In this document: positions 6,127 to 22,397 of the stretch, piece by piece
How the letters are laid out: the number at the start of each line of letters is the position of its first letter
Position numbering within the stretch: the first letter of the stretch is position 1
DNA from: a virus
Length of the DNA: 22,626 nucleotides
Virus record (IMG/VR): IMGVR_UViG_3300015360_000213
Coordinates: 1 to 22,626 of that record
Strand: one strand, 5' to 3'
The notes under the pieces: model-generated
Told to the model about the DNA's origin: nothing
The model's input: the letters and a program-made list of their open reading frames with translations, nothing else
Databases searched by the model: none
Program-made: the position numbers and the translations under genes

Positions 6127-6687
6127 CTATGGTAGCAGCCTCCCCACTGCACCCTGTAATCCATTACGTATAACGGCATTGTAATCGCGTATGGCAGTTG
6201 GATTTGTGACTGTCTCACGAAGCGGGGTCCATGTGCCGGCGTGGTAGTGCGACTGATCGCCCTCGTCACCAATAACCTTCTTGGCATAAGGGGTGTTCGT
6301 CCCAACCTCAATGACCCACAGATTGTTAGAGGGGTGCAGCACACGGCTCGTAATGGACTTGCCGAGCGTCCCTGTCCGCTTATAGGGGATACCGCCCTTC
6401 TCGCCTAACTTAATGACGAAGTAAGCCTGCTTGTCGCTTTTGAACTTAGAGAGGTAGGGTTTTGTGGGACGACCAAAGGCAGTCGTGCGCGTGTAAAACT
6501 TAGGCAGAGGCTTCCTGCTCGGCACAGGATACTCACGCGCTTTGCTCTCCGCGACCACGCCGACGGTTGACGCGATCTGGAAGAACAGCGCGTCACGTTG
6601 CGATTTGCTCAACACCGAGCGAAGGCGTTTGGTTAGTTCGCTAAACGCCTTATCACTTGCTTTGAAAATAATCAGCTTGTCGGTCAT
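6127..6687 (-). CDS. HK97 gp10-like head-tail joining protein
   Basis: A 186-residue basic protein. The segment PYKRTGTLGKSI (101-112) is characteristic of the HK97 gp10 family, which contributes to the neck or to tail completion after DNA packaging. An N-terminal helix (residues 10-50) precedes it, also as in the family. Its ATG overlaps the portal stop as ATGA, so translation is coupled. It lies between portal and capsid genes, somewhat earlier than in HK97, where it follows the connector genes. A minor head protein role is the alternative. Confidence 0.65.
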   Translation of the reverse strand: MTDKLIIFKASDKAFSELTKRLRSVLSKSQRDALFFQIASTVGVVAESKAREYPVPSRKPLPKFYTRTTAFGRPTKPYLSKFKSDKQAYFVIKLGEKGGIPYKRTGTLGKSITSRVLHPSNNLWVIEVGTNTPYAKKVIGDEGDQSHYHAGTWTPLRETVTNPTAIRDYNAVIRNGLQGAVGRLLP

Positions 6688-9600
6688 GCTGCCTCTAGGC
6701 TAAAGTCAATCTCCACAATCGGACGCATGAAGCAGCGACAACCGGGGTGTGCCGGAATGTTGAAGGTCTGCCCAGCAAACTTGGACGTGTCCACACCGCC
6801 GACGCTGCGCCCATCATGCACCCACCCCGTATCAAACGCGGCTTCCCTGCCCTGTAGGGGTCGGCAGATCGGACACACATGCTCGTCTTTCACAGTCTGG
6901 TACGCGGCACGTTGTACGCCCACATTGCGCCAACGCTCTTTCGCGCCCTCGTTGTAAACCCGTGTGGTCTCGGTCTGGGCAATCAGCCGCGCGCGAACAG
7001 GGTCATTGAAGACGGTGTTTAATTCTCTGGTTAGTTCCTCCAGTGTACCGCCGCGCTCCAACCACTCGCTGACTATGCGGCTTACCTCGTCTTGAGTCGT
7101 GCCGTCAATACGGCTAATCAGACTAAACGTATATTGCGTGGCAAAGCGAATCGCTTCCTCGCTTTGGAGTTTCCAATTCAACGAGAGATCAAGCTCGCGC
7201 AACGCCGAACGATAATCGGCACTGGCATTGTGGATCAGGCTTTCGTTTCCGGCTGCCATACCTGCCCAGATCAGTTTGAGCATTGCGCCGGGGTCGTCCG
7301 CCGTGCCGACCCATTCACGCACCAGATCGTCGTGCAAGGTTTGCAGGGTGAAGCTGATACTCAGGGCATTGGTCTCGGCGCTGACGGTTGGGGCAATGGT
7401 TTCCCATGCCTTCGCCATGTAGCCCTCTAACCATGCGTCACCAATCTCCGCTTGCAACTTGTCATACTCCGACCAGAAGGCTTCAAATTCTTCCGGCGTT
7501 GCAAACTGTTCGGGTTCTTCCAGCAGATTGTGAGGATTCAGAGTAGGGTTACGTGCCGCTTGTGCTAACTGGTCGCGCCGGACTTCCTCCCTAAACTCGC
7601 CACGTAATAAGCGTTTGGCTGTTGGGAACACGTCGGCAGGGGTCGCGCCCATACGCAGCGCCAAGTGGACGAAATCAGAGGTCGGGGTATCGGCAAGGCG
7701 TAGGGGCAGAAAGGGTTTCTTGCCCCTTGTGACGACGTGCTGCCAGTTCTTGAGTTCGGCTACTTCGTCCGGCGAAAAGCGTAACTCGTACTCGCCAACC
7801 ACTTGATTGTTGTAGCGCACCTCTAGACAGTCCAGCACAATCGGATAGGCTTCACTCGCAATAGTTGGCGGTAGCTCCCCCTCATAGATTGCAAGCGGAA
7901 TGATCGGCTGCCAGTCTTCCACATTTACGCCGATTCGTTCGCTGACTTGCGCTGAAAATTCGTACAAGCTCTCGCTGTTTGCCAGTGTCGCCACAATGTG
8001 ATTATTGACACAATCAAACCGCGCAATGGACGTGTTGAACTTCTCAAGTTGCAAGTCTTCAAGCTGCGCCAATATGCCTTTCGCGTCGCCTAGTGTTGCG
8101 CCTTCTAAGGTGGCGAAGGTTACAAACCACTGATCGTCCGTCTCCCAGAAAGGGTTCGGCAACTCCTGCTCCGTGAGATAGGCAGACAGGGTACGACGGG
8201 CATAGCGCAGCATGGCGTTGTTCGCAAGCGACACACCCACTGTCACCCGACCTGCGGCGCGTGTGGGCGTGGCAGGCGCGGAAGTCGGCACGGGTGCAGG
8301 CAACACAGGAATCGCCTCGCGTACCCGACCCTCTACTTGCTCCAGTAGTTGGGTACTGTGCGCTTCTAACATAGAGCGTAGTGTGGTTTCCACGTCGGAG
8401 AGGGTGAAGGGGAACGAAGGCATGGCAGGAGCCGGCGCGGTTACGTTCTGCTCGGCAAGCTCTACCAGTTTGTTCAATGGCACAATGCCAATCGCCGTCT
8501 TGACCACACGCCCCATACCGAAGGGCATATCGGGTAAGCCGATTAAGCGCCGCACTTCGTCGAGGTAGGCAATGCCCGATTCCCACACGGAGAGCGCCGC
8601 TACAGGGTCACGCGATAAGTAGCCCTCCTCCACGTCAAGACCGACAAATTCGCGCCCCTCGTTGTAGGTCGCCATACCGCCGATAGTAACCGCTTGTGCC
8701 GTCTGCGCGTTTTCGAGGTTGGCATTGCTGAGTACCCCAATGCCTTTGCGGTTCACTTCCAAGCGGTAGTAACGCTTCTCGCGGAAGTCAGTGGCAAGCC
8801 ACTGATCGTACAGCGTTTCGAGGATATGGTCGAGGCGTGGCAGCGCGACCCCTTCAATGTGACTGCGCTCAATCTGTCGGTAGGTGTTCTGTGCCGATAG
8901 TGCGTCGGCAGCCGTCGCCGCGCCGATCAACACAGGATTCACCTGCATAATCTTGCAAATATCTTCGGCGATCTCGCTGCTCACTTCGCCAATGGCAAGG
9001 TCTACCGGGTTCGGGGTGATCGGAATCCACTCCCAGTCTCCCCCCTGCACAAAGGTTTTGAAAGCGTTATCGCTGCCCTGAAATTGCTTCCAGTCCTGTT
9101 TCGCCCGCTTAATCTCGTCTTCGGTTTTCTTGCCCTTCGCAATCAGCATTCCGTCAGGACGCGCCATGTTGCGGAAGAAGGAGGCGCGGAACTTCTGAAC
9201 ACCCTGCTCTCCCAAAATGGGCGTAAGCGCCACTTCGACCCGGCTCTTGATCGTGAAGGACTGTGCCGGGAAGCAGACAATATCCTCTTGGGGAATTTCC
9301 TCTAACGCGCCGTCGTCACTTTGCACCCGATAGCGACAGCCTGCCGCGTCTTCAATCTTTTCCACTAGATCACAGTGCAACCATTGCAAGCCCGTTGGGT
9401 AGCCGGCTTTATTGCGCCACTTACGAACGTAGGCAACGTTGTAAATATTCAGGCTTGCGTCCACATACCAGATCACCGAAGACAGTAGCTTCATAGAGTT
9501 CATGATCGGGTTGAGGTCTGCCGCCTCGCCATTAGGTTCAACCACCATGAGGGGCAGCGACTTCACAGTATCGGCACGGTGAACCAAACACGCGAACGCG

Positions 9601-9782
9601 GTTGCGCTTGCCGTCGCTGCCTGAGTGAGGGCGCTCTCCTGCAACGCATAACCGTTCATGAGGGCGCGGAATTGTTGATCGAGGGTGCTGCGTGTGCCGG
9701 AGACTTCCGTCAGTTGATCGCCCGTTACCATAAAGACGGTGCGCGTCTCTGCCAACGCCATAAGTGCTTGTTCGTCTACCAT
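6684..9782 (-). CDS. Portal protein fused to 2H-like and MuF-type minor head domains
   Basis: About 1,032 residues from the ATG at 9782, which overlaps the terminase stop; a TTG four codons upstream is the other start. Residues 40-430 match HK97-type portals: the DLNPIMNSMKLLSS helix, the IVCFPAQSF strand, a stem with IGEVSSEIAEDICKIMQVNP, and the LSAQNTYRQIERSHIEG helix. Residues about 510-670 resemble a 2H phosphoesterase fold with the catalytic histidines replaced (WFVTFATLEG, WQPIIPLAIYEG). The C-terminus is a phage Mu F-type domain with VCPICRPLQG near 970 and PAHPGCRC near 1015. Portal forms the dodecameric DNA gate; MuF proteins enter the head. Such a triple fusion is longer than a usual 400-500 residue portal. 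Confidence 0.85.
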   Translation of the reverse strand: MVDEQALMALAETRTVFMVTGDQLTEVSGTRSTLDQQFRALMNGYALQESALTQAATASATAFACLVHRADTVKSLPLMVVEPNGEAADLNPIMNSMKLLSSVIWYVDASLNIYNVAYVRKWRNKAGYPTGLQWLHCDLVEKIEDAAGCRYRVQSDDGALEEIPQEDIVCFPAQSFTIKSRVEVALTPILGEQGVQKFRASFFRNMARPDGMLIAKGKKTEDEIKRAKQDWKQFQGSDNAFKTFVQGGDWEWIPITPNPVDLAIGEVSSEIAEDICKIMQVNPVLIGAATAADALSAQNTYRQIERSHIEGVALPRLDHILETLYDQWLATDFREKRYYRLEVNRKGIGVLSNANLENAQTAQAVTIGGMATYNEGREFVGLDVEEGYLSRDPVAALSVWESGIAYLDEVRRLIGLPDMPFGMGRVVKTAIGIVPLNKLVELAEQNVTAPAPAMPSFPFTLSDVETTLRSMLEAHSTQLLEQVEGRVREAIPVLPAPVPTSAPATPTRAAGRVTVGVSLANNAMLRYARRTLSAYLTEQELPNPFWETDDQWFVTFATLEGATLGDAKGILAQLEDLQLEKFNTSIARFDCVNNHIVATLANSESLYEFSAQVSERIGVNVEDWQPIIPLAIYEGELPPTIASEAYPIVLDCLEVRYNNQVVGEYELRFSPDEVAELKNWQHVVTRGKKPFLPLRLADTPTSDFVHLALRMGATPADVFPTAKRLLRGEFREEVRRDQLAQAARNPTLNPHNLLEEPEQFATPEEFEAFWSEYDKLQAEIGDAWLEGYMAKAWETIAPTVSAETNALSISFTLQTLHDDLVREWVGTADDPGAMLKLIWAGMAAGNESLIHNASADYRSALRELDLSLNWKLQSEEAIRFATQYTFSLISRIDGTTQDEVSRIVSEWLERGGTLEELTRELNTVFNDPVRARLIAQTETTRVYNEGAKERWRNVGVQRAAYQTVKDEHVCPICRPLQGREAAFDTGWVHDGRSVGGVDTSKFAGQTFNIPAHPGCRCFMRPIVEIDFSLEAA

Positions 9783-11149
9783 ACGCCCGTCCAACCTTTC
9801 CCGTTGCGTTTTGCGCCGGCGAGTGCGAGAACAAAACTATCTGCTGCGTCGTCTGCTAATCCTTGCGGCGCTCGTAGGGTGCTGCGCTCAATCGAGATTA
9901 GTTGGTCGTAGGTCTTGCGGCTGTGAATAATGGGAGTGCCGGCTTTCAAGAGGTCGCCGCCGTCGCTGTACATAATGTGCTTGCCTCGCGCACTGGACAG
10001 CCACCCCGTATTGTCGTCGTGTCCCGCCAACACTTGCAGCCCGCTATGCTCCTCCAACCACAACAGCACAGCATGACCGTGATTGTTGCGCTCAACCATA
10101 ATCGAGGCTTGGTTGTAGTAGTCGCCAATCGTGTCGGCGTATCCGGCAAGCACGGCAAAGTGAATCTTGCCACTTAGGTGACAAACCTCTTCGAGCGTGT
10201 CCACGTCCAACACCGTGATACTGCTATCGTCGCTGGTATCCTTGCCCTCTGCTGGGTCAACGCCCAACACATAGGCTTTGCCCTTTGTCGGCGCGGCGTA
10301 AAGGTGTAGGTCACTAATGGCGGGTGCGTCGCTGAGTGGCAGCAGGTCACGTTTTTGGTAGCACTGCTCAACCCAACCGCTTTCGAGCAGCTTGTCGCTG
10401 GTACGTGCCGAGAGTGCTTGTGCGTCGGTTGCCGGGTACTGCTCGTGCAGGTCGTCCAGCGTCATGTTGCGTGATTGCTTCTCATACCATGCTGCGTCAC
10501 GCAAGGGGTGAACATGCCAGGGCAGGAAGATCGCTTTGAAGCTGTTCTCGCCTTGTGCCGCGCCTCTGTACAATTGCTTAAAGTATGAGTTGGGCTTCTT
10601 TTTATCGGCACGACTAATCAGCGCCAACTTCCCTCCAGCGTTGACGGTAGGTTCAACTCGTCCGAGTAGCTCTTTCAAGTCCGGCACAAGATCAGCTTCG
10701 TCAATGAAGGCAAACGTGGCACTGTAAGAATCCCCTGCATTACTTGGGAAGGCACGAATGCCAGACAGATTGGTCAGCCGGAAATGGGTGATGTCGTCCT
10801 TGATAATCCCACGCGCTTGCAGGAATTCGGGGAGGTGCGTGTACATGCCGCGCAGACGCTCATTGCTAATGAGGTACATAGCTTCGTCCTCGCGCTTGCT
10901 AAAGACAAGGCACTCAGCAATCGGACGAAACAGCATAAGCCATAGGGCATACGCCATCAGAATCCATGTGAGTCCCATTTGCCGCGCCTTCAACCCGATA
11001 AACTCTTTCGCGGCGTGCAGGGTATCTACCACGTGACGCTGGAAGCCCCACAGCAAAAAGGGAATCCAGCTTTTAGCGACGGGATCATAGATTTTGATAT
11101 AAGTGGTTATGAAATATGCCGGGGAGAGGGCGCACTTCTTCACTTCCAT
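9776..11149 (-). CDS. terL: Large terminase subunit (ATPase-nuclease)
   Basis: A 457-residue protein from the ATG at 11149 (a GTG at 11167 is also possible; the open frame extends to 11239). The N-terminal ATPase has a terminase-style Walker A, KARQMGLT at 54-61, and a Walker B, FAFIDEAD at 146-153. The C-terminal RNase H-like nuclease shows acidic residues at D298 (GVDPAEG), E353 (VERNNHG) and D437 (DDAADSF), the usual metal-binding set. It pumps DNA through the portal and cuts genome units. The ATG lies about 5 bases from the TerS stop, and its stop overlaps the portal start. All key motifs are intact, so the enzyme looks functional. Confidence 0.9.
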   Translation of the reverse strand: MEVKKCALSPAYFITTYIKIYDPVAKSWIPFLLWGFQRHVVDTLHAAKEFIGLKARQMGLTWILMAYALWLMLFRPIAECLVFSKREDEAMYLISNERLRGMYTHLPEFLQARGIIKDDITHFRLTNLSGIRAFPSNAGDSYSATFAFIDEADLVPDLKELLGRVEPTVNAGGKLALISRADKKKPNSYFKQLYRGAAQGENSFKAIFLPWHVHPLRDAAWYEKQSRNMTLDDLHEQYPATDAQALSARTSDKLLESGWVEQCYQKRDLLPLSDAPAISDLHLYAAPTKGKAYVLGVDPAEGKDTSDDSSITVLDVDTLEEVCHLSGKIHFAVLAGYADTIGDYYNQASIMVERNNHGHAVLLWLEEHSGLQVLAGHDDNTGWLSSARGKHIMYSDGGDLLKAGTPIIHSRKTYDQLISIERSTLRAPQGLADDAADSFVLALAGAKRNGKGWTGVW

Positions 11150-11153
11150 AAGT

Positions 11154-11747
11154 TCATTTTCCGTCACGTTGCGCCTTCTCCCATGCTTCGAGTTGCGCGA
11201 GTACGGCGGCGAGGTCGTCAATCTTGGTTTCAATCTCAATCGGCTTGCCGTCGTTGCCCGTGATCTGATTCTGGGTCACGCGCTCCGGCAGCCCTACCGC
11301 CCGTCTACCCTGCTGACTAATGTCATTACGCCAACGGCTGATCTTCTCCCAGTCGCTCGTGTTCAATTCCATGAGCTTGACCTTTGTCCCGTCGTCCAGC
11401 GTTTCGGTATGGGTGCGCTTGTGCAACTTGGTTTTCTCAACGAACTCGCGCCACTTGCGAAGCTGTAACTCATAGTCGCTGGTCTCGTTCTCAAGAATCT
11501 CGTCTCGCCGTTTCTTGAGCAGCGCTTCACGATCTTTAAGAGCAGCCTCTGCCTGTGCTTTGTCGTAGTCGCGCACCCGTTCAACCCAGTTGTATTTACG
11601 CGACCAACGACTAATGAGCGCGGTACTTTTGCCTAACTTATTTGCTACCGACTCATGAGAGCGATTCACGCCCATATCGCGGTAAAGACCGAAGGCTTCA
11701 AAGGATTTATCGGTGTCAGTGGACTGCCATTCCCAACTGTTACTCAC
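11154..11747 (-). CDS. terS: Small terminase subunit
   Basis: A 197-residue protein with an N-terminal helix-turn-helix at residues about 18-50 (AFGLYRDMGVNRSHESV, then GKSTALISRWSRKYNWVERV), typical of phage small terminases that recognise the packaging site. It is followed by a long charged helix (about 55-115) for oligomerisation. The C-terminal tail would contact TerL. It lies directly upstream of terL in the same operon. The intergenic space before it (11748-11899) contains a strong hairpin. The call combines the HTH-plus-coil architecture with position next to an unmistakable TerL. Confidence 0.8.
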   Translation of the reverse strand: MSNSWEWQSTDTDKSFEAFGLYRDMGVNRSHESVANKLGKSTALISRWSRKYNWVERVRDYDKAQAEAALKDREALLKKRRDEILENETSDYELQLRKWREFVEKTKLHKRTHTETLDDGTKVKLMELNTSDWEKISRWRNDISQQGRRAVGLPERVTQNQITGNDGKPIEIETKIDDLAAVLAQLEAWEKAQRDGK

Positions 11748-11818
11748 GGGAGGTCTTTCTATTGCGTGACGACGTTATTGTTGTCAGTGTAGCCGTGCGA
11801 GGAAGGCAATTTGTACAA

Positions 11819-11859
11819 ACACAAAGCGACGCGGAGGGGGAAGGCGCGTCGCTTTGTGT
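11819..11859. repeat. 15-bp perfect inverted repeat between integrase and terS
   Basis: Arms of 15 bp (11819-11833 and 11845-11859) pair perfectly around an 11-base loop. On the minus strand the hairpin is followed by a modest T-rich stretch (GTTTGT), so it may attenuate transcription from the integrase into the packaging genes. It also lies just beyond the integrase C-terminal coding region, where serine-integrase phages often carry attP. It could therefore be a terminator, a pac-related site or part of an attachment site. Confidence 0.6.
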
Positions 11860-11899
11860 CGTCATTGGAGACTTCTTAACAGTAGCGCAAATGGTGAGG

Positions 11900-12193: not shown

Positions 12194-13465
12194 TTAAGCC
12201 GCCGCTTGCAACATAATAAGGTTGCTAATTTCCTTACTCAATTTTTCCAGTTTGCCTTCGGCTTCGGCGATCTCTTTATCATAATCGCGCACGTCACTTA
12301 CGCCCAGAAATGCGCTCAAGTCACGGCTCAAGATCAATGTTCGCAGCGCCTTGTCGAGGTATTGGTAGATAGTCTTGATATTAATTGTGGTGTTGTTATT
12401 GCATTGGCGGGTGCTCGTCGGGCTAGTGTAAGCAGAGCAACTCAGGGTGACGTAGTTGAGATCGTTATCCCTAGTAGTCATGTGGTAGCCGCACTGGTAG
12501 CAGACGATCAGTCCAGCAAACCCATGTCGCGGCTGCGCGGGGCGGTGGCTGCCACGAGTTTGCTCTCGCCGTGACATTTCCGCTTTCACCCGTTCGGCAA
12601 GGTCGCCCTCGTACACACTTGGCACCACGTTATAGTTCACTTGCACCTTGTCAGGAATAGGATTTCCAGCTTCACGCACCCACGGACCCCGTTCGCGGTG
12701 CTTATAATGACGCGCCATGTGTCCCCAAAACACAGGACTACTCAATAAACGCCAGTAGTATTTCGGTTGGTAGGGTTCGTTGAGAGCGTTGGCATAGCCA
12801 TACTGGTCGAACATGGCTTGTTCAATTTTCCCGTAAGGCATTCCCGACAGCACTAACTCGGCAAGGTGCTGAAACTCCTGTATACGCTGAGGATTGACGA
12901 CCACTTGCGAAACCTTGCCTGCCGTATCACGCAGTACCTGGTGGGAATCCGGCACACTGGCACTGGACGGAAGCCCACGTTGAAACAGCTTGTTCATGCC
13001 CTCCTGATTGCGTCGGCGCATTTCAGTCATTTCGCTCTGCACACGAAAGCCGTCCAGTGCCGACCAGCCGACATAGGTTTGCTTGTCGACCCAACCCGAC
13101 GAAAATGTGTAGATTCGCGCTTCCGCTTCGACAATGGTACGCGCCGTGACATAAGCATGAAGCGCCTGAGTACGGGCGAAGCGGCTGCCGTCACGCACGA
13201 CCAACACGTCGAAGTCCTTCGCAAGCCAGTGCGCTTCCAATTTCGTAAAGGCGAAAATGCCGGCGCGTTCCATGTCGCGCTTCGCGTCGTGAAAGTCTAT
13301 GTAATCCCGTGAATGTCCCGGCACGACGAGGGTATCTACCAATGTCCACCCGTTGCTCTGGATCAGGGCAAGGTTGTTTTCGTGCTGCTTTGGGAGGCTG
13401 TCTTTGTCCTCATGGGTCTGCGAAACCGTGCTGACCGATTCCCAAGATATGGCGCGTAAGGTCAT
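12194..13465 (-). CDS. Large serine recombinase (phage integrase), C-terminally truncated
   Basis: 423 residues. The resolvase domain spans about 5-150: the nucleophile region is SVSTVSQ (S12 likely catalytic), followed by DKDSLPKQ and the SRFAR segment (R95, R98). The Arg that normally precedes the nucleophile (RVS) is Ser here. A recombinase DNA-binding domain follows (SGMPYGKIEQAMFDQYG near 207; RLLSSPVFWGHMARHYKHRERGPW near 240). Then comes a zinc ribbon with CYQC at about 322-325 and Cys near 343 and 355, and a coiled coil from about 390. An in-frame TAA truncates the coil; 97 more family-like codons follow. It joins attP and attB for integration. Its ATG overlaps the upstream stop as ATGA. 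Confidence 0.85.
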   Translation of the reverse strand: MTLRAISWESVSTVSQTHEDKDSLPKQHENNLALIQSNGWTLVDTLVVPGHSRDYIDFHDAKRDMERAGIFAFTKLEAHWLAKDFDVLVVRDGSRFARTQALHAYVTARTIVEAEARIYTFSSGWVDKQTYVGWSALDGFRVQSEMTEMRRRNQEGMNKLFQRGLPSSASVPDSHQVLRDTAGKVSQVVVNPQRIQEFQHLAELVLSGMPYGKIEQAMFDQYGYANALNEPYQPKYYWRLLSSPVFWGHMARHYKHRERGPWVREAGNPIPDKVQVNYNVVPSVYEGDLAERVKAEMSRREQTRGSHRPAQPRHGFAGLIVCYQCGYHMTTRDNDLNYVTLSCSAYTSPTSTRQCNNNTTINIKTIYQYLDKALRTLILSRDLSAFLGVSDVRDYDKEIAEAEGKLEKLSKEISNLIMLQAAA

Positions 13466-13791
13466 GGGCTAATTCCTTCATCCATGAGACATTGCTGGAA
13501 CGGTGCATCAAGCGTAGGGGAAGCGTTGTGACAAGCCGTGATCTTATCGGGCATAATAGTCATGGCATTAACTGACCACTCGTAACACGTCGTGTTTTGT
13601 GGGTCAGCTTGAAAACAATACAACGTCAACCTGCCAACGATTGCGCCCTGCTCACGCGCCGGACGAAGCACGGTAATGTCATACGCGATATAGGCAGCAA
13701 TGAACACAAGCACGATCACAACCCCTGTCACAATAGCAGTCATGAGTGGCGAACGGCGCGGCTTACCCGACTTAGGTTTTGGTTTTGTCAT
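13462..13791 (-). CDS. Single-pass membrane protein upstream of integrase
   Basis: 109 residues: a strongly basic N-terminus (KPKPKSGKPRR), one transmembrane helix at about 17-38, then a 70-residue outer domain with four Cys (59, 69, 87, 101) that could form two disulfides. Positive-inside topology places the C-terminal domain outside the membrane. The stop overlaps the integrase start as ATGA, so the two are co-translated. Function unknown; superinfection exclusion or another lysogenic membrane function is a guess from its link to the integrase. A GAGG motif lies about 10 bases before the ATG. Confidence 0.65.
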   Translation of the reverse strand: MTKPKPKSGKPRRSPLMTAIVTGVVIVLVFIAAYIAYDITVLRPAREQGAIVGRLTLYCFQADPQNTTCYEWSVNAMTIMPDKITACHNASPTLDAPFQQCLMDEGISP

Positions 13792-13901: not shown

Positions 13902-14051
13902 ATGAGTAAGGTTGAAGGGTATCCGACGATTGAGGAACAGATATTCTTAGCGCGATACAGGCGGTATCCGCGCTGGAAGAAGAAGGTGGTCGTGTGGCTG
14001 CTATCCGTTCCCGTCCTTCGGCTCGTCACCTTGCGGCTGATTAAACTTTAG
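13902..14051 (+). CDS. Small basic membrane-active protein, convergent with repressor
   Basis: 49 residues starting at an ATG with a GGAG site 7 bases upstream. The N-terminal half is polar; a basic RYRRYPRWKKK stretch precedes a hydrophobic C-terminal segment VVVWLLSVPVLRLVTLRLI. It could insert in or lie on the membrane. The 3' end overlaps the repressor gene by 51 bases on the opposite strand, so the transcripts would be partly antisense. No family recognised; small size keeps confidence moderate, but the ribosome-binding site and isolated intergenic position support it. Confidence 0.45.
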   Translation: MSKVEGYPTIEEQIFLARYRRYPRWKKKVVVWLLSVPVLRLVTLRLIKL

Positions 14052-14357
14052 CATGGCAAGCCTCACTAACTCCGTAACATTTTTACCTTGATAAGCACGT
14101 AAAGCGAGCAGCTCGTCTTGTGGCAAACTGTCTACTGAAATAACACCCGTAAAATCGTCGCTGCGCCCCAGCAGGTAATCGGCACTTATATCCAGCACGT
14201 CGCAGAGTTTGGCAATAATATCGTAGGGTGGTGAAGCGTCGTCAGCCTCCCAACGAACGATAGAACTTTTATGAACGTCGAGCCTGTCTGCCAGCTTTTG
14301 CTGTGACAAATTGGTTCGATTGCGTGCCGCTTTCAAACGATCTCCGAAACTGCTCAT
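14001..14357 (-). CDS. XRE-family phage repressor
   Basis: 118 residues from the ATG at 14357. The open frame extends upstream across the operator region, but that start would bury the operators, and an internal GGAG lies 10 bases before this ATG. The N-terminal Xre/Cro helix-turn-helix spans about residues 5-62: LKAARNRTNLSQQKLADRLDVHKSSIVRWE, ending ISADYLLGRSDD, the classic family ending. The short C-terminal part has no Ser-Lys autoprotease domain, so induction would need another signal than RecA-type cleavage. It is divergent from the early operon and probably binds the two palindromes at 14411-14447. Confidence 0.85.
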   Translation of the reverse strand: MSSFGDRLKAARNRTNLSQQKLADRLDVHKSSIVRWEADDASPPYDIIAKLCDVLDISADYLLGRSDDFTGVISVDSLPQDELLALRAYQGKNVTELVRLAMLKFNQPQGDEPKDGNG

Positions 14358-14410
14358 ACCCGTTGTACTCCCATACCTCCATTTTAACAAATTTGTGGTT
14401 GCTTTTTTGG

Positions 14411-14447
14411 TATCACTTGTGATAATATAGATATTGTCACTTGTGAC
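14411..14447. promoter_or_regulatory. Two palindromic operators between repressor and early operon
   Basis: Two sites share the core TCACTTGTGA: 14411-14424 (TATCAC and GTGATA arms around TT) and 14436-14447 (GTCAC and GTGAC arms around TT). Their centres are 24 bp apart, about two helical turns plus a little. A -10-like GATAAT at 14421-14426 overlaps the first site. The region separates the repressor from the early genes, so repressor binding would block the early promoter. A further palindrome, ACAAATTTGT, lies at 14387-14396. Confidence 0.75.
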
Positions 14448-14469
14448 TACATTACCCAAAGGAGTGTTC

Positions 14470-14724
14470 ATGCCTGTACCGTCCAAAATCCGCGACCTTG
14501 CTGACGCGAAAGGAATTCCAGAAGTGGAGTTTGTTTCGCAGATTGTTGAAGAAGAACAAGGGAACGTGGCGCGTGCCTCTCGTCGGCTAAACGTAACACG
14601 CGCCGCGCTCGAAAAATTTATGTCGCGCCATCGCCTCGCTGTGATCGCAAAGGTGATTCGCTTGACACCCGAATTGTATCCGCAAAAAAGCGTTGTGAGC
14701 GAAAGGATTGCAAATCCGCAATGA
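14470..14724 (+). CDS. Fis-type HTH early regulator
   Basis: 84 residues from the ATG at 14470, chosen because AAAGGAG lies just upstream; the open frame begins earlier but that start would lie inside the operators. Residues about 29-52 (EQGNVARASRRLNVTRAALEKFM) match the Fis/NtrC-type helix-turn-helix. As first gene of the early operon it occupies the Cro position and may repress its own promoter or activate later genes. A DNA-binding role is supported by the motif; the exact regulatory effect is inferred. The stop overlaps the next start as ATGA. Confidence 0.65.
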   Translation: MPVPSKIRDLADAKGIPEVEFVSQIVEEEQGNVARASRRLNVTRAALEKFMSRHRLAVIAKVIRLTPELYPQKSVVSERIANPQ

Positions 14725-15737: not shown

Positions 15738-15940
15738 CGAGCGACGAGCTAGACCAATTGTTTCCTGACCGTCAGCAGATCGCTGACCGCTTGGGACTGC
15801 ACCCTGAGCTATGCGCGTCGTTTGCGCCGATTTGCTCACCCGGCAGCCTCACCCAACACCAACTACCTGCTCTCTTTCCGAACGCTCAGTTGTTCGGAAT
15901 GGCACTCAACAAACTATGGAGAACGACTCATGCCTATTAA
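15734..15940 (+). CDS. Small early protein of unknown function
   Basis: 68 residues starting at an ATG that overlaps the upstream stop as ATGA. An N-terminal helix pair (TSDELDQLFPDRQQIADRLGLHP) could be a small DNA- or protein-binding module; the rest is hydrophobic and Pro-rich. The last 11 bases overlap the start of the next gene. No homologue recognised. Confidence 0.5.
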   Translation: MTSDELDQLFPDRQQIADRLGLHPELCASFAPICSPGSLTQHQLPALFPNAQLFGMALNKLWRTTHAY

Positions 15941-16937
15941 CGGCTTAACGCAACACCACACGTCTGGCAGTGGCTTGGCGCGGCTCGGTGTCCTGCACAA
16001 AGGTGCAGTACGCAGCGACGCGGACAAGGCAAACAACAAGCCCGGCAAAGACCTCGACTATTTCCGTATGCAGTTCGCGCCGGAGTGGCAGCACCTACAA
16101 CCGGCTTGGGAAGCCCTATATGGCACTCAACCCAAGACCATTACCAACGCCTTCCTCATGACAGGCAATGCGGACGCGGCGCTCGATTCGTGGCTAGAGC
16201 AATGGGGCGCTTCTGGATTGATTCACCGTTGCGACGGACATACCCAGCGTGATTGGTTCAATGCCGAGAAGGGCAAAGTTGAACGCAACTCCTCCAAACC
16301 CTGCGAACAGCCCTCTTGCCAATGCAAGAAGATTGGTCGGATCAATCTGTTTCTGCCGGAGTTCGTTGCCCAGACAGGGGCGCTTGGCTATGTTGCCCTG
16401 CACACCCATTCCGTGCTGGACATTAAGCATTTGTACAGTTTGCTATCCGATCTAGAAAACCTATACGGCACGTTAATTCGTGTGCCGTTTGTCGTATCGC
16501 GCCGTCCTCAATCCGTTGAAATTCCAGAAGTGAAGCAGGGCAAGCCGACAGGCAAGCGCATGAAGATCGTGAAAAGCCTCATTCATATTCAGTCAGACCC
16601 GACCTTTACCCAACAGCAGATCGCGCCGCGCCTCATGGCGGTTGCTAACGCCTTGCCTGCCAATGTCAACCCGGCAACCGGAGAGGTTATCGCAGTGCGT
16701 CCGGCACTCCCTGCAACCACGCAATCTGCCGGTTGGTCGAGGATCGAAGCAATCGCTTGGGTAGACGCAGTTACCAAACAGTATCCCGATCTTACAAATG
16801 ACAACCTGAAAACAATGTTAGGAGTCAGGTTGTTTACCGAGTGGCAGGGAACGGCTGAACAAGCAACGCAAGCGGTTAATGCTTGGATTGAAGAAGCAGA
16901 GGCAGCCGCCGAAGAAGAGCCGGAGATTGAATACTAA
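15930..16937 (+). CDS. Gp3-like recombination directionality factor candidate
   Basis: 335 residues from the ATG at 15930 (GGAGA upstream). The sequence follows the pattern I associate with phiC31 Gp3-like directionality factors: an N-terminal GLARLGVL..G motif, a KPGKDLDYFRM segment (38-47), WEALYGTQPK (60-69), a LEQWGASGLIHRCDG box (89-103), a Cys cluster (C101, C125, C130, C132), GRINLFLPEF (136-145), GALGYVALHTHSVLDIKHL (150-168) and a conserved VPFVVSRRPQSVE strand. Such proteins bind large serine integrases and switch them to excision, and this element carries one. The C-terminal 100 residues are more variable. The family call is from memory of the pattern, so a Gp3-like protein with another role is possible. 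Confidence 0.6.
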   Translation: MPINGLTQHHTSGSGLARLGVLHKGAVRSDADKANNKPGKDLDYFRMQFAPEWQHLQPAWEALYGTQPKTITNAFLMTGNADAALDSWLEQWGASGLIHRCDGHTQRDWFNAEKGKVERNSSKPCEQPSCQCKKIGRINLFLPEFVAQTGALGYVALHTHSVLDIKHLYSLLSDLENLYGTLIRVPFVVSRRPQSVEIPEVKQGKPTGKRMKIVKSLIHIQSDPTFTQQQIAPRLMAVANALPANVNPATGEVIAVRPALPATTQSAGWSRIEAIAWVDAVTKQYPDLTNDNLKTMLGVRLFTEWQGTAEQATQAVNAWIEEAEAAAEEEPEIEY

Positions 16938-17233
16938 TGGGCATACACCGTCGCGCTGCCAAGAGGGACGCAAACGAAACGCCGATTATCGCTGCCCTCA
17001 AAGCGGCGGGGGCGACGGTGTATCAACTGTCTGCAACTGGAGTGCCAGATTTACTTGTGTGCTACTACGACAAAGAAAAGGGCGAGTACGACACGGCACT
17101 GATAGAGGTGAAGGACGGCTACAACACGCTGACCGAAGCCCAACAAGAATTTATGAAAACGTGGAAAGACGACAACGTCCACCTTGCTTACACCATTGAA
17201 GAGGCTTTGAAAGCCATAGGAGCTATCTCATGA
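16937..17233 (+). CDS. VRR-NUC-like nuclease
   Basis: 98 residues forming a minimal VRR-NUC/PD-(D/E)XK fold: an N-terminal helix with E14, GVPDLLV (D38), a strand with IEVKDG (E57, K59), then LTEAQQEFMKTWK and a C-terminal helix. In phages, stand-alone VRR-NUC proteins act on branched DNA or replication intermediates. The start overlaps the previous stop as TAATG and the stop overlaps the next start as ATGA. The catalytic set is intact. Confidence 0.8.
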   Translation: MGIHRRAAKRDANETPIIAALKAAGATVYQLSATGVPDLLVCYYDKEKGEYDTALIEVKDGYNTLTEAQQEFMKTWKDDNVHLAYTIEEALKAIGAIS

Positions 17234-17767: not shown

Positions 17768-18049
17768 GTGAAAATCCCTAACAGAGATTTGCGTTACAAC
17801 GTTGCCGCTATGCAGAAAAAGCGAAACGACAATGTGGAAGACCGTACCCTGCTCCAGCAGCAGGAACAAACCATGTTGGCAACTCGTGCTGAACTCGACG
17901 CAGCTATTGCCAAGATTCAGCGTGACATCCGTATCTGCGATCACGCCATTAGCGATCTCGACAGCGACATTAAACAGGGCGTGACCAAGCTCATGCTCAA
18001 CGAATCCCACGACATGGAGCTATGGAGTCGCTATGCAACTACTGATTAG
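17768..18049 (+). CDS. Small coiled-coil protein
   Basis: 93 residues from a GTG at 17768 with GGAGG 6 bases upstream, directly after the preceding stop. An upstream in-frame ATG lies inside the previous gene and lacks such a site. Residues about 20-75 form a charged helix with heptad character (QQQEQTMLATRAELDAAIAK). The 3' end overlaps the ParB-methyltransferase gene by 17 bases. Function unknown; it may partner the coiled-coil protein before it. Confidence 0.55.
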   Translation: MKIPNRDLRYNVAAMQKKRNDNVEDRTLLQQQEQTMLATRAELDAAIAKIQRDIRICDHAISDLDSDIKQGVTKLMLNESHDMELWSRYATTD

Positions 18050-19499
18050 TCGTATTCGCACGGACGGCGGGACGCAGCCGCGTTCGCTGATAGACGAGCA
18101 GGTGGTTGCCGACTATGCCGAAGACATGGCAAAGGGCGATACCTTCCCGGCAGTTGATCTGACCTATGACGGGGAGAGCTATTGGCTGACGGACGGCTAC
18201 CACCGTATCGCGGCTGCCAAGTCGTTGGGGTTAGCAGAGTTTGCCGTCACCGTGACACAAGGCACTCAGCGCGACGCGGTGCTGTCCAGCGTAGGCGCAA
18301 ACCATGAACACGGCTTGCGTCGTACCAACACCGATAAGCGCCGTGTGGTCGAGCGTCTGTTTGCGGACAGCGAGTGGTCGGGCTTTAGCGACAGCGAGAT
18401 CGCCCGACGCTGCCGGGTGACGCAGCAATTCGTGTCGAAGCTAAGGTCACTTACAACAGTTGTAAGTGAGAATGAGCAACGCACTTACACGAATAAGCAT
18501 GGTCAGGAAACAACCATGCAGACGGGCAAGATCGGCAAGTCACGGCTCAAGAATTACCAGAAGCGCACCAGCGACAACGACGCAAGCCGTCCGATACCGA
18601 CAAAACCCTTGCTTGATCTGGACGCGCCGATTTATCTACACGACGCGATAAGCGCAGGCAAGATCGGCGTGGTCAAGGCGATTGCAGTTTGGGATGCGCT
18701 CCGTAACGTGACAGAACATGTCCGTTATGCGTGTATACAAAACGAAGTCTTGGACGCGCAGGCGGTCTTGCTGTTTGATCGCAAGAGCCACACGGAAACG
18801 GCACAAGCTGCCCTTGCCAGTGGCTACCTGCAAACAGGTGACGAAGAGGACGCGCTGCCCCTGTCCGAAGCTACAGCGTGGGACATTCAGGGGTTGCTAA
18901 GGACAGCCGAGCAGGAACACCGTCGCGCCGGCATTGATCTGAAAATTGCCGCACAACTGGCACAAATTCAGACTGCGCCCAGTGAGGTGTACAGCGTGAT
19001 CTACGCTGACCCGCCCTGGCAATATGACAATCAGGGTCACTATGGCGCGAGCGAACGCCACTACCCCACGCTGCCGACTGACAAGATCGCCTCGCTGCTA
19101 ACCGATATTGATCTGGTCGTGGCAGACAACGCCGTGCTATTCCTCTGGGCAACCAATCCTTTGCTGCTTGACGCGCTGCATGTGCTAAAGGCATGGGGCT
19201 TTAACTACAAGACCAATCTTGTATGGGATAAGCGTGTGCCGACGTTAGGGCTTGGCGTGTATGCGAAGGGTCAGCATGAGCTATTGCTGATTGCGACGCG
19301 CGGCAGCTTCCGACCCAACTTCATGTATCCCTCTGTCATTTGCGAAGAGAAGACTACGCACAGCACGAAGCCCTCGCGCCTGTACGCCATGATCGAAGCC
19401 ATGTACCCGGCACAACGGTATATGGAGTTGTTCGCCCGTCACCCCGAATCCCGCGAGAGTTGGTCATTTTGGGGCGCAGAACTGGAGCGTGCCTCATGA
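18033..19499 (+). CDS. ParB-like N-domain / HTH / MT-A70 adenine methyltransferase fusion
   Basis: 488 residues. Residues 1-90 are ParB/Srx-like: a QPRSLIDEQVVADYAEDMAKG start and a LTDGYHRIAAA box at 52-62, the ParB nucleotide-binding motif. A helix-turn-helix follows at about 118-140 (SDSEIARRCRVTQQFVSKLRSL). Residues about 320-485 are an MT-A70-type N6-adenine methyltransferase with the catalytic DPPW at 326-329, YPTLPTDKI, VLFLWATNP and ELLLIATRG. It would methylate adenine in DNA, probably at sites chosen by the HTH part. The start (GGAG, ATG 18033) lies inside the previous gene; the stop overlaps a nuclease start as ATGA. The codons right after the HTH contain a 23-bp palindrome. Confidence 0.88.
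   Translation: MQLLISRIRTDGGTQPRSLIDEQVVADYAEDMAKGDTFPAVDLTYDGESYWLTDGYHRIAAAKSLGLAEFAVTVTQGTQRDAVLSSVGANHEHGLRRTNTDKRRVVERLFADSEWSGFSDSEIARRCRVTQQFVSKLRSLTTVVSENEQRTYTNKHGQETTMQTGKIGKSRLKNYQKRTSDNDASRPIPTKPLLDLDAPIYLHDAISAGKIGVVKAIAVWDALRNVTEHVRYACIQNEVLDAQAVLLFDRKSHTETAQAALASGYLQTGDEEDALPLSEATAWDIQGLLRTAEQEHRRAGIDLKIAAQLAQIQTAPSEVYSVIYADPPWQYDNQGHYGASERHYPTLPTDKIASLLTDIDLVVADNAVLFLWATNPLLLDALHVLKAWGFNYKTNLVWDKRVPTLGLGVYAKGQHELLLIATRGSFRPNFMYPSVICEEKTTHSTKPSRLYAMIEAMYPAQRYMELFARHPESRESWSFWGAELERAS
18447..18469. repeat. 23-bp perfect palindrome inside the ParB-methyltransferase gene
   Basis: Arms TCACTTACAAC and GTTGTAAGTGA flank a single central A (18458). The same arms form the core of the 33-bp palindrome at 3515-3547 and one arm is kept at 648-666. 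Here the repeat encodes residues 139-146, just after the HTH recognition helix, so protein and DNA constraints overlap. Confidence 0.85.
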
Positions 19500-20011: not shown

Positions 20012-20607
20012 TGTCCATTAAAGCCATTACATGGGTCTGGGAACACAGCCCTTACAAGGGAACGCAATTGCTTATTCACCTTTCATTGGCGGACATTGCC
20101 GACGAGGAAGGACAAACCGTCGTCAATTACGAATGGCTTGCAGATCGTGCAAGGTGCAGTGAATTGGAAGTTGTTTACACCCTGCACCTGATGCGTGACA
20201 ACAAGGACATTGCAATCTCGGAAAAAGCTGTGACGTTGACAAGCTATCTGGAGAGTAATCCACTCCAGCCGATTGCAAACCGCAAGAAAAAGTACAAGTC
20301 AGTTATCCACAAGGCACCGACTATCGCCGCTCGTGATAACGGTTGGCAGTGCTTCTACTGCCACGTCGCACTCATTCCTTATGGGATTGCTCCTGACGAT
20401 CCGGCATACCCACGCGATAGATACTCGCCGTGTGAAGTTGACCATCGTTTCCCCAAAAGCAGAGGTGGCAGCGACCATTTAGACAATTTGGTTTTAGCTT
20501 GCAACACCTGCAACGCTCGTAAAGGGGCAAAGTCCGATACGGAGTTTCTCTTGTGGTTAAGTGAGCGCGGCGAACTGGCAGTCATGGAAAGGATTCGCTA
20601 TGAGTGA
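20011..20607 (+). CDS. HTH (winged-helix) - HNH endonuclease fusion
   Basis: 198 residues from the ATG at 20011, overlapping the previous stop as TAATG with AAGGGGG upstream. Residues 1-80 resemble the winged-helix domain of phage replication proteins ([41 protein letters not shown]). Residues 110-175 are an HNH nuclease with a zinc knuckle: CFYC (114-117), [15 protein letters not shown] (H145), [17 protein letters not shown] (C164, C167). The N-domain resembles that encoded by the next gene in type, suggesting an HNH nuclease that gained a replication-type DNA-binding domain. It could nick at or near the origin; homing is an alternative. Confidence 0.75.
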
Positions 20608-21478
20608 ACGTATCCGCCGCGCTACTCACGGCAAGCAGAATCCCTACTTCCTGTTCTCACGGGATACTGCCCAAGATCGTACCCTTTCGTTTGAAGCGCG
20701 AGGCATGTTGGCATACCTTCTCAGCAAGCCTGACGACTGGGCGGCTGACGTGCGAGATTTACAGCAGGAATGCGGACGCGATAAGGTTTACAAAGTCCTG
20801 CGCGAACTTGTTGAACACGGCTATATCACTGATCGGGTGCGTACTCGTAGCAAGGAAGGAACATGGCAATACAGCGATTACATAGTACATGAAACTCCCT
20901 GCGAATCCACGCCGCTTCCTGAAAAACCGTATACGGACGCACCGTATACGGAAAACAAGGAAATAAAAGCACTTAATACAGAGGGACAAACTTCAGATTA
21001 CAAAATAAAGATTGTGTCTGCGTCTGACGACGCGCCACCGTCTTTTGAAAAATCTGTGAGACCTCGCTCTGAAAAGCAACAAGCGCGTGACGCTCAATGG
21101 GAAGCCCTTAAAGCTGCCATGAAGTGGGAGACCGTCGCCAAGACTGACGAAAAGCGGTTCGGGCAGGTTGTCACTGGATTGTCCGTGCTCACCCCGGCAC
21201 AGATCGAGCGGTACGTCGAGTGGGTACGCGGACTTGCTGCCTCACAGCGTTGGACGTTTAGCCTCAATGCGCTCATGGGTACAGGGCGTGTGTCGCAATT
21301 CCTGAGCCAGCTTCCCAAAGCAGTTCCGTCCGCACCCCCTCAATCTACAACCGACTGGGATAGCAGGGGCTTGGATAAGTGGGGCGATCCCAAAAGCCCT
21401 TACTACGACCTGCCTACATGGTCACGCGAAAAGAAAAAGCTAAAAGAGCAGGAGGCAAGCCGTGTCCAGTCCGCTTAA
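20600..21478 (+). CDS. HTH replication initiator
   Basis: 292 residues from the ATG at 20600 (GGAAAGG upstream; overlaps the previous gene by 8 bases). The N-terminal domain (about 15-95: [28 protein letters not shown], then [15 protein letters not shown]) is the winged helix-turn-helix of phage replication initiators. A low-complexity linker (about 105-165) contains a repeated PYT(D/E) motif encoded by two palindromic iterons. The C-terminal part (about 175-240) resembles DnaD-like or loader-binding domains. It lies directly upstream of a DnaC-type loader, the lambda O-P arrangement, so it probably binds the origin in its own gene and recruits the loader. Confidence 0.75.
20927..21016. other. 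Candidate replication origin: two iterons plus AT-rich stretch
   Basis: Two copies of the perfect palindrome CCGTATACGG lie at 20927-20936 and 20942-20951, 15 bp apart, with extended flanks in common (A before, A after). They are followed by an AT-rich run to about 21016. The location in the linker region of the initiator gene mirrors the lambda origin inside gene O. Confidence 0.55.
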
Positions 21479-22397
21479 GAAGTTGGTCAACAACGACGAA
21501 ACCGCCGCGTTCATTCGCAAAATTCAGGCGAGCTTCGACGCGCAAAACGCCAAGCGTCCTATGCTGGTCACGTTTGAAGAGCCAGCACCGATATGTCCGG
21601 TCTGCTCCAACATGGGCGTGGTATCGCACCGCGCACCGCTTGGGCATAGGGACTTCGGCAAGTTGTTCCCATGCCCTCATGAGAATTGTCCGACACGTTA
21701 TGACTGGCAGAAACGCCGAGCGTACAAGCTCATGAATGAGACCGAGATACCCGCCGCGTATGTGGATTTGAACCTCGAAGCCTTCTTGGACATGAACCCG
21801 TCCGTGCTGAAGGGCAAGTACCTGGCGTGGGGATTGTGCGCGGCAATGGTCTTTTATCACGGTGCGACGGAAGGTTTCACGCTGCGCCATGCGGCAGAAC
21901 TCACGGGCAAACTCAATCCAGAGAAATATAACGACACCCTGCCGCGTCGCTCGTTGGTTTTGTCTGGCACGTATGGACTGGGCAAGACAACGCTCGCTTG
22001 CGGCACGGTAAAGGCATTGGCAGCCGCGAATATCCCCGTGTTGTACATACGGCTCGACGATCTGTTTACCGACATTCAGCACCGTTATGGCGAGATTGGC
22101 AGCGACGAAGACCGCGCCGAGCAGCGCCTACGCCGTGTGTCTCTCATGCCCGTGTTGGTGCTGGACGAGTGCAATGTCTCGACCATAAGCGACGACAAGC
22201 AGCGCATTTTTGAGAGCATTGTCCGTTACCGCGCCGGCAACCGACTGCCCACGCTGTACACAACCAACTTAACCCATGAAGAGTTTCGGCGCACATGGGG
22301 GCAGCGCATTGCTGATCCCTTATTTGCCGACGCGCACTATATCGAGCTACAGGGCGAACGCCTCCGCGCGAACGCCAATGTTGCACAGGAGTGGTAA
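21462..22397 (+). CDS. DnaC/IstB-like helicase loader ATPase
   Basis: 311 residues from a GTG at 21462, supported by GGAGG 7 bases upstream; the first 17 bases overlap the initiator gene. The N-terminus carries a zinc-binding set (C45, C48, C71, C76). The AAA+ core has Walker A SGTYGLGKTT (168-177), Walker B VLVLDE (231-236) and a sensor region LYTTNLTHEEF (265-275). DnaC-type loaders place the replicative helicase on the opened origin. No helicase, primase or polymerase is in the window, so it would use a host helicase or one encoded beyond the break. The IS copy begins 6 bases after its stop. Confidence 0.88.
   Translation: MSSPLKKLVNNDETAAFIRKIQASFDAQNAKRPMLVTFEEPAPICPVCSNMGVVSHRAPLGHRDFGKLFPCPHENCPTRYDWQKRRAYKLMNETEIPAAYVDLNLEAFLDMNPSVLKGKYLAWGLCAAMVFYHGATEGFTLRHAAELTGKLNPEKYNDTLPRRSLVLSGTYGLGKTTLACGTVKALAAANIPVLYIRLDDLFTDIQHRYGEIGSDEDRAEQRLRRVSLMPVLVLDECNVSTISDDKQRIFESIVRYRAGNRLPTLYTTNLTHEEFRRTWGQRIADPLFADAHYIELQGERLRANANVAQEW

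Follow-up and report, generated by a model that had tools for sequence, protein, structure and literature searches.

The locus raises the question of whether a Gp3-like protein encoded in a phage early operon is the dedicated recombination directionality factor (RDF) of a serine integrase encoded 2.5 kb away, or a protein of replication and recombination. The sequence-only reading had paired the two and seen in them a possible new system for reversible recombination. Earlier work already covers the PF18897 family, the RDFs in it and what they look like in structure, and also the idea that they moonlight. Two things are new here: a Gp3-like protein of divergent sequence next to a serine integrase that is itself divergent and interrupted, and a tally of family members from phages in which no integrase was detected. 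A limited search, which says little about the wider literature, found no papers that name PF18897 and none that mention Gp3-like along with recombination directionality factor. The window is the whole DNA stretch analysed, the 22,626-base virus record IMGVR_UViG_3300015360_000213 (positions 1 to 22,626; classed as linear).

Layout of the window

The structural genes run leftward and reach about position 11747. Portal protein and Mu gpF-like head protein are joined in a single 1036-aa ORF (6684-9794; PF04860, PF04233). A 728-aa ORF in the capsid region (3928-6114) looks by eye like a protease-capsid fusion; Pfam (E up to 0.01) gave no match for it, and neither did tblastn against the phage collection.

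The early operon runs rightward, divergent from the gene of a CI/Cro-type repressor (Table 1). Its order is HNH (NUMOD4/HNH_3), Gp3-like, VRR-NUC/Holliday-resolvase-like, ParB-like/MT-A70 fusion, HNH, replication initiation-like and DnaC-like. In the fusion (18033-19499), an MT-A70 DNA methyltransferase follows a ParB-like N-terminal part (matches to phrog_1033 and PF05063). A GGAGA stretch (15918-15922) lies 7 bases ahead of the Gp3-like ATG. The early operon with nuclease genes nearby is a feature shared with phiC31 gp3, phiBT1 gp3 and TG1 gp25. The window holds no tRNA genes and no Rfam families, and its counts of promoter and terminator consensus sequences are not above those of shuffles.

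The best named matches point in several directions: the terminase to Stenotrophomonas phages, the ParB part to Acaryochloris among others, and the Gp3-like protein to a cyanophage and a Chloroflexota plasmid (23-26% identity). The portal protein gave weak matches only in this named-match search for the host.

Table 1 Features of the window discussed in the text
Feature	Position	Strand	Remarks
Terminase	9776-11239		Leftward structural block
Terminator-like hairpin, strong	11812-11864	-	Past the end of the continued integrase frame; MFE -30.1 kcal/mol
Integrase frame continued past the TAA	11900-12193	-	97 stop-free codons; coding-like periodicity
Serine integrase, first 423 aa	12194-13465	-	Ends at in-frame TAA 12196-12194
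Small ORF	13462-13791	-	Between integrase and repressor genes
CI/Cro-type HTH repressor	14001-14486	-	PF01381 E 2.2e-13; PF07022 E 3.6e-6
Gp3-like protein, 335 aa	15930-16937	+	ATG start; PF18897 E 8.9e-22
RCDG box, R100-G103	16227-16238	+	C101 and G103 align with phiC31 gp3 C117 and G119
C125, C130 and C132 of the Gp3-like protein	16302-16325	+	From alignments
HTHS strand, H158-S161	16401-16412	+	T and S in common with the aligned QTGS strand of phiC31 gp3
VRR-NUC/Holliday-junction-resolvase-like protein	16937-17233	+	Gene after Gp3-like; PF08774 E 1e-4, just under cut-off; phrog_5702 E 2.7e-8
Replication initiation-like and DnaC-like helicase-loader genes	20603-22397	+	Same operon as Gp3-like; profile matches

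Sequence of the Gp3-like protein

As the sequence-only reading had proposed, the protein belongs to the Gp3-like family. Its PF18897 match scores 78.3 bits against a cut-off of 23.6, with residues 19-202 covering positions 1-179 of the 191 in the profile; this is far beyond chance for a sequence match, and phiC31 gp3 itself scores lower (64.4 bits). NCBIfam gave no match for the protein. An OB-fold core (about residues 17-230) is followed by a helical C-terminal part (270-328) and an acidic tail ending in EEEPEIEY, with a net charge of -8 over the last 20 residues. The phiC31-type RDFs, at about 20% identity, are roughly 240 aa long and do not have the C-terminal extension.

Both motifs first noticed, RCDG and HTHS, also align as had been suggested (Table 1). 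The protein shares PF18897, the CDG box, a T-x-S strand and the predicted core fold with phiC31 gp3, phiBT1 gp3 and TG1 gp25. To judge from their positions, C101, C125, C130 and C132 likely form a zinc site. Four Zn residues are predicted for the phiC31-family RDFs (PMC11530663), from which the window protein differs in having these four cysteines. The CDG cysteine is absent from two aligned relatives: a Promineifilum plasmid protein (L007) and its identical IMG/VR copy (L015) read RGDG. Hence, not every member of the PF18897 family has the likely zinc site.

In phiC31 gp3, the residues G27, M105, C117, G119, P154, P168 and L170 are reported as needed for integrase binding (PMC5814800). The window protein keeps G27, C117, G119 and L170, and has Leu, a similar residue, in place of M105. 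P168 is not kept, and the region of P154 is poorly aligned. Together with the PF18897 match, the RDF fold described below and the closeness of the integrase gene, the kept residues argue for a dedicated RDF, which would clamp the hinge between the zinc domain and the coiled coil of the resident integrase and so lead to excision from attL x attR. Its place in an early operon opposite a CI-like repressor would also suit an excision factor. However, most relatives that have no serine integrase also retain G27, C117 and G119. With the interrupted integrase frame and the position of the protein in the family tree (both below) also weighed, we consider a dedicated RDF unlikely, though not far-fetched.

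Predicted structure

We modelled the window protein and a second family member (L008) with AlphaFold; the alignments behind the two models are shallow (9 and 10 rows, respectively). The window model has a pLDDT of 74 overall, and the ten-residue blocks of the core are mostly at 71-96. Searched against the PDB, it matches a single chain at E up to 0.001, 9teh_I (E 1.4e-8), with Z 11.7 over 184 residues and an rmsd of 5.1. Chain I was identified with phmmer as phiC31 gp3, and 9teh is the phiC31 excisive synapse. The L008 model matches the same RDF (E 5.1e-7; Z 12.1). A profile search with the family alignment against PDB sequences gave nothing at E up to 1, which leaves Pfam and the fold as the basis for linking the protein to 9teh. 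In BFVD, the window model has ten matches at E up to 0.001, of which the best two are unnamed.

After the RDF, the structural neighbours include the T4 and RB69 gp32 cores and many SSB, RPA and PriB OB folds, a weak likeness throughout (Z 3.0-4.3, under 8). The gp32 cores match over 116-129 residues, that is, over most of the core, with Z 3.6-3.7 for the window model and 4.3 for the L008 model; no sequence similarity was found between gp32 and the window protein. gp32 has a zinc site. The C-terminal part of the window model (265-330) gave MCM C-terminal matches with Z up to 6.4, which rank above gp32 and lie in a range common for helical parts.

The resident serine integrase

The integrase claimed as the partner is present, and the pairing stands to this extent; its frame is cut by a TAA in the coiled-coil region. 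By sequence, the protein is a divergent large serine recombinase: the zinc ribbon PF13408 is above cut-off, PF00239 is below it (E 0.004), and phrog_95 matches with 101.8 bits for the open part and 108.5 bits in a six-frame search. Zinc ribbon, catalytic-domain match, the position of the catalytic Ser (Ser12), and the remains of a coiled coil and C-terminal part are features in common with phiC31 Int and TP901-1 Int. It is unlike both in the low PF00239 score, in the TAA and in having Ser at position 10. This position, two residues before the catalytic Ser, is Arg in all eight comparison integrases. An Arg at this place acts in serine integrase catalysis. PMC4058570 mentions active-site arginines in general terms.

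In a six-protein alignment, the TAA falls on Y475 of phiC31 Int, in the coiled coil and adjoining E476/D477, which are marked residues in the zinc-domain model of PMC5814800. According to the same paper, deletion of residues 457-523 from phiC31 Int abolishes both integration and excision. For LI integrase, some intramolecular activity is left when the coiled coil is missing (PMC5814800). The domain bearing the coiled coil is also the one on which phiC31 gp3 acts. Given a stop in this region and Ser for a conserved Arg, the integrase as assembled is probably non-functional.

The segment behind the TAA is likely to have belonged to the integrase gene because three features agree. Base composition by codon position is similar before and after the TAA (0.58/0.41/0.63 and 0.60/0.37/0.63; 0.66/0.50/0.36 in an intergenic stretch). 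When the TAA is read through, the phrog_95 match runs on to residue 454 and gains 7 bits (101.8 to 108.9). The hairpin, which none of 200 shuffles equalled (z -5.6), follows the end of the frame. It is absent from the consensus terminator scan, in which the loop limit is 8 bases. Taken alone, the segment has no PHROG match, and two other pairs of gene neighbours in the window share a frame, so that a same-frame continuation by itself is no proof of one gene.

The like periodicity on either side of the TAA, the profile extension and the hairpin would also suit a TAA introduced by sequencing or assembly, or one carried by a minority only, the integrase being intact in the population. It is also the single stop inside the integrase frame, as an additional TAG that was counted lies upstream of the ATG. 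The Ser-for-Arg change, however, is independent of the stop and likewise points to a decaying enzyme, and no relative of the integrase was found in the viral contigs for comparison. An artefact or minority variant is a serious possibility, though less likely than not. A two-piece enzyme, in which a C-terminal peptide with its own start (TTG 12187) would pair with the 423-aa part through half coiled coils, seems to us highly improbable: the 95-codon same-frame tail has this possible start and coding-like periodicity, but by eye no ribosome-binding site precedes the TTG, we know of no precedent, and a plain nonsense mutation accounts for the same facts.

Distribution of the family and of integrases

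Nine distinct environmental phage sequences carry Gp3-like relatives (L005, L006, L008-L010 and L012-L015; the L011 protein is that of L010), as do cyanophage CL131, Ca. Promineifilum breve plasmid III and actinophages. Terminase and capsid genes are annotated on plasmid III. In the group of uncharacterised proteins from L005-L015, CL131 (gp101), Microcystis phage MinS1 and plasmid III, those compared are 22-38% identical to the window protein, and most members have a long C-terminal part.

PF18897 is above cut-off in 15 of the 16 records tested, the exception being TP901-1, and a serine integrase (phrog_95) is present in four: the window, phiC31, TG1 and TP901-1. Searches with phrog_95, and also with PF00239 and PF13408, thus detected no serine integrase in 12 of the 15 Gp3-like records, where the absences from IMG/VR records are weak as these are fragments. 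Among the 12, G005 and G006 share one Gp3-like protein, and the protein of the G010 locus (L015) is the same as that of W03.

We therefore give separately the count for complete phage genomes, a sample of 16 from 24 evenly spread matches among 229 INPHARED records matching phiC31 gp3 (left out were phiC31 itself, H85, and H86, H92, H94, H95, H102, H103 and H105). A serine integrase was detected in nine and undetected in seven; six of the seven also have no detectable tyrosine integrase, and Microcystis phage MinS1 has two tyrosine matches. An RDF role is plausible for the actinophage members, where the association with serine integrases is real (9/16). With the resident integrase interrupted, and no serine integrase detected in 12/15 and 7/16 Gp3-like carriers, the idea of a working pair for reversible recombination is not supported.

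Phage genomes receive the label 'recombination directionality factor' from likeness to the Gp3-like family. Four of the seven integrase-free complete genomes carry it: in the actinophages TukTuk, SansAfet, Dismas and Squircle (L042, L044, L045 and L046), a gene has this label although no integrase of the serine or the tyrosine type was detected in the genome. In view of these genomes, the label should not count as evidence that an integrase and an RDF are paired.

Single-protein scans found no close relative of the Gp3-like protein in viral or genome contigs, and an alignment scan of the genome contigs was also empty. In the viral contigs, such scans found no close relative of the terminase and none of the integrase. 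The contig scans yielded no sister phage for comparison, whether its integrase was intact or broken.

Family tree and position 170

We used a tree of 29 core rows and 228 columns, in which CL131 and Promineifilum have long branches; an earlier 13-row tree was set aside for its few supported branches and long-branch warnings. The window protein falls in a set of 11 rows (support 100/98), the 10 others of which come from integrase-free records. The actinophage rows, including the phiC31/TG1 branch, form the other side (100/100). Its grouping apart from phiC31 and TG1 argues against the dedicated RDF considered above. L005-L015, CL131 gp101, MinS1 and the Promineifilum plasmid III proteins stand on the same side and have similar replication and recombination surroundings. 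Unlike the window, they have no detected serine integrase, so that within this set of sequences the window is the only carrier on its side. The serine-integrase label needs 3 changes on the tree.

The position of phiC31 gp3 L170 holds Leu in all 12 integrase carriers, the window protein included, vs 3 of 17 others. Among the actinophage rows, it is Leu in 11 of 11 carriers and Trp in six integrase-free rows. The three other Leu rows (L005, L008 and L010) are among the 10 integrase-free neighbours of the window protein; hence, Leu170 does not decide for an RDF role.

Role of the Gp3-like protein

Around the Gp3-like gene, many actinophages have exonuclease, Holliday resolvase and nucleotide-metabolism genes. 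In L008 and L012, a PF00436 SSB gene lies directly behind it. The Gp3-like protein ends in EEIPF in L008, alone among the IMG/VR members, and in D(E/K)PAF in five Dismasvirus members; we take these tails to resemble the tip of bacterial SSB. TG1 integrase uses an ssDNA-binding protein as its RDF, and the Gp3-like RDFs are perhaps moonlighting phage ssDNA-binding proteins (Alsaleh 2025, as cited in PMC12924846).

Because of the weak OB-fold neighbours, the SSB-adjacent genes and tails, the recombination-gene surroundings and this moonlighting literature, we favour an early protein of the ssDNA-binding type, and infer ssDNA binding for the window protein. It is on balance probable that the Gp3-like gene encodes such a phage replication and recombination protein, the stock from which the phiC31-type RDFs were recruited. 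The many carriers without a detected serine integrase and the place of the protein in the tree also speak for this reading. Against it stand the low Z values, the shallow alignments under both models, the separate SSB genes of three IMG/VR records, the two relatives that have lost the CDG cysteine, and the Leu170 pattern. An OB-fold, gp32-like protein with a zinc-site insertion would then work in the early replication and recombination module, and the phiC31-type factors would be a specialised branch whose integrases learned to use the family protein. The favoured reading treats RDF activity as only a recruited second job in some lineages, and an RDF role of the window protein as unproven. As the resident integrase is probably inactive, any RDF function of the window copy would now be idle or lost, and the protein may still serve as the RDF of an intact copy of the integrase in sister phages. 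That the window preserves a second, independent recruitment outside the phiC31/TG1 branch, in which a divergent integrase was acquired, tuned and is now decaying, is a speculative and rather improbable extension. Recruitment from an ssDNA-binding-type protein offers a testable picture of RDF origin: a general phage ssDNA-handling protein would have come first, and integrases would have adapted to it later.

Two further roles were considered. Replacement of SSB by the Gp3-like protein, in its simple form, was rejected, as three IMG/VR Gp3-like records also have a PF00436 SSB of their own. That the protein stands in for one of single-strand annealing is compatible with the absence of RecT from all 16 records and of ERF above cut-off, but annealing is unsupported and we did not adopt it.

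At the L008 locus (10001-11518), the Gp3-like protein with its EEIPF end is followed by a PF00436 SSB with two matched stretches, which itself ends in KIPF.
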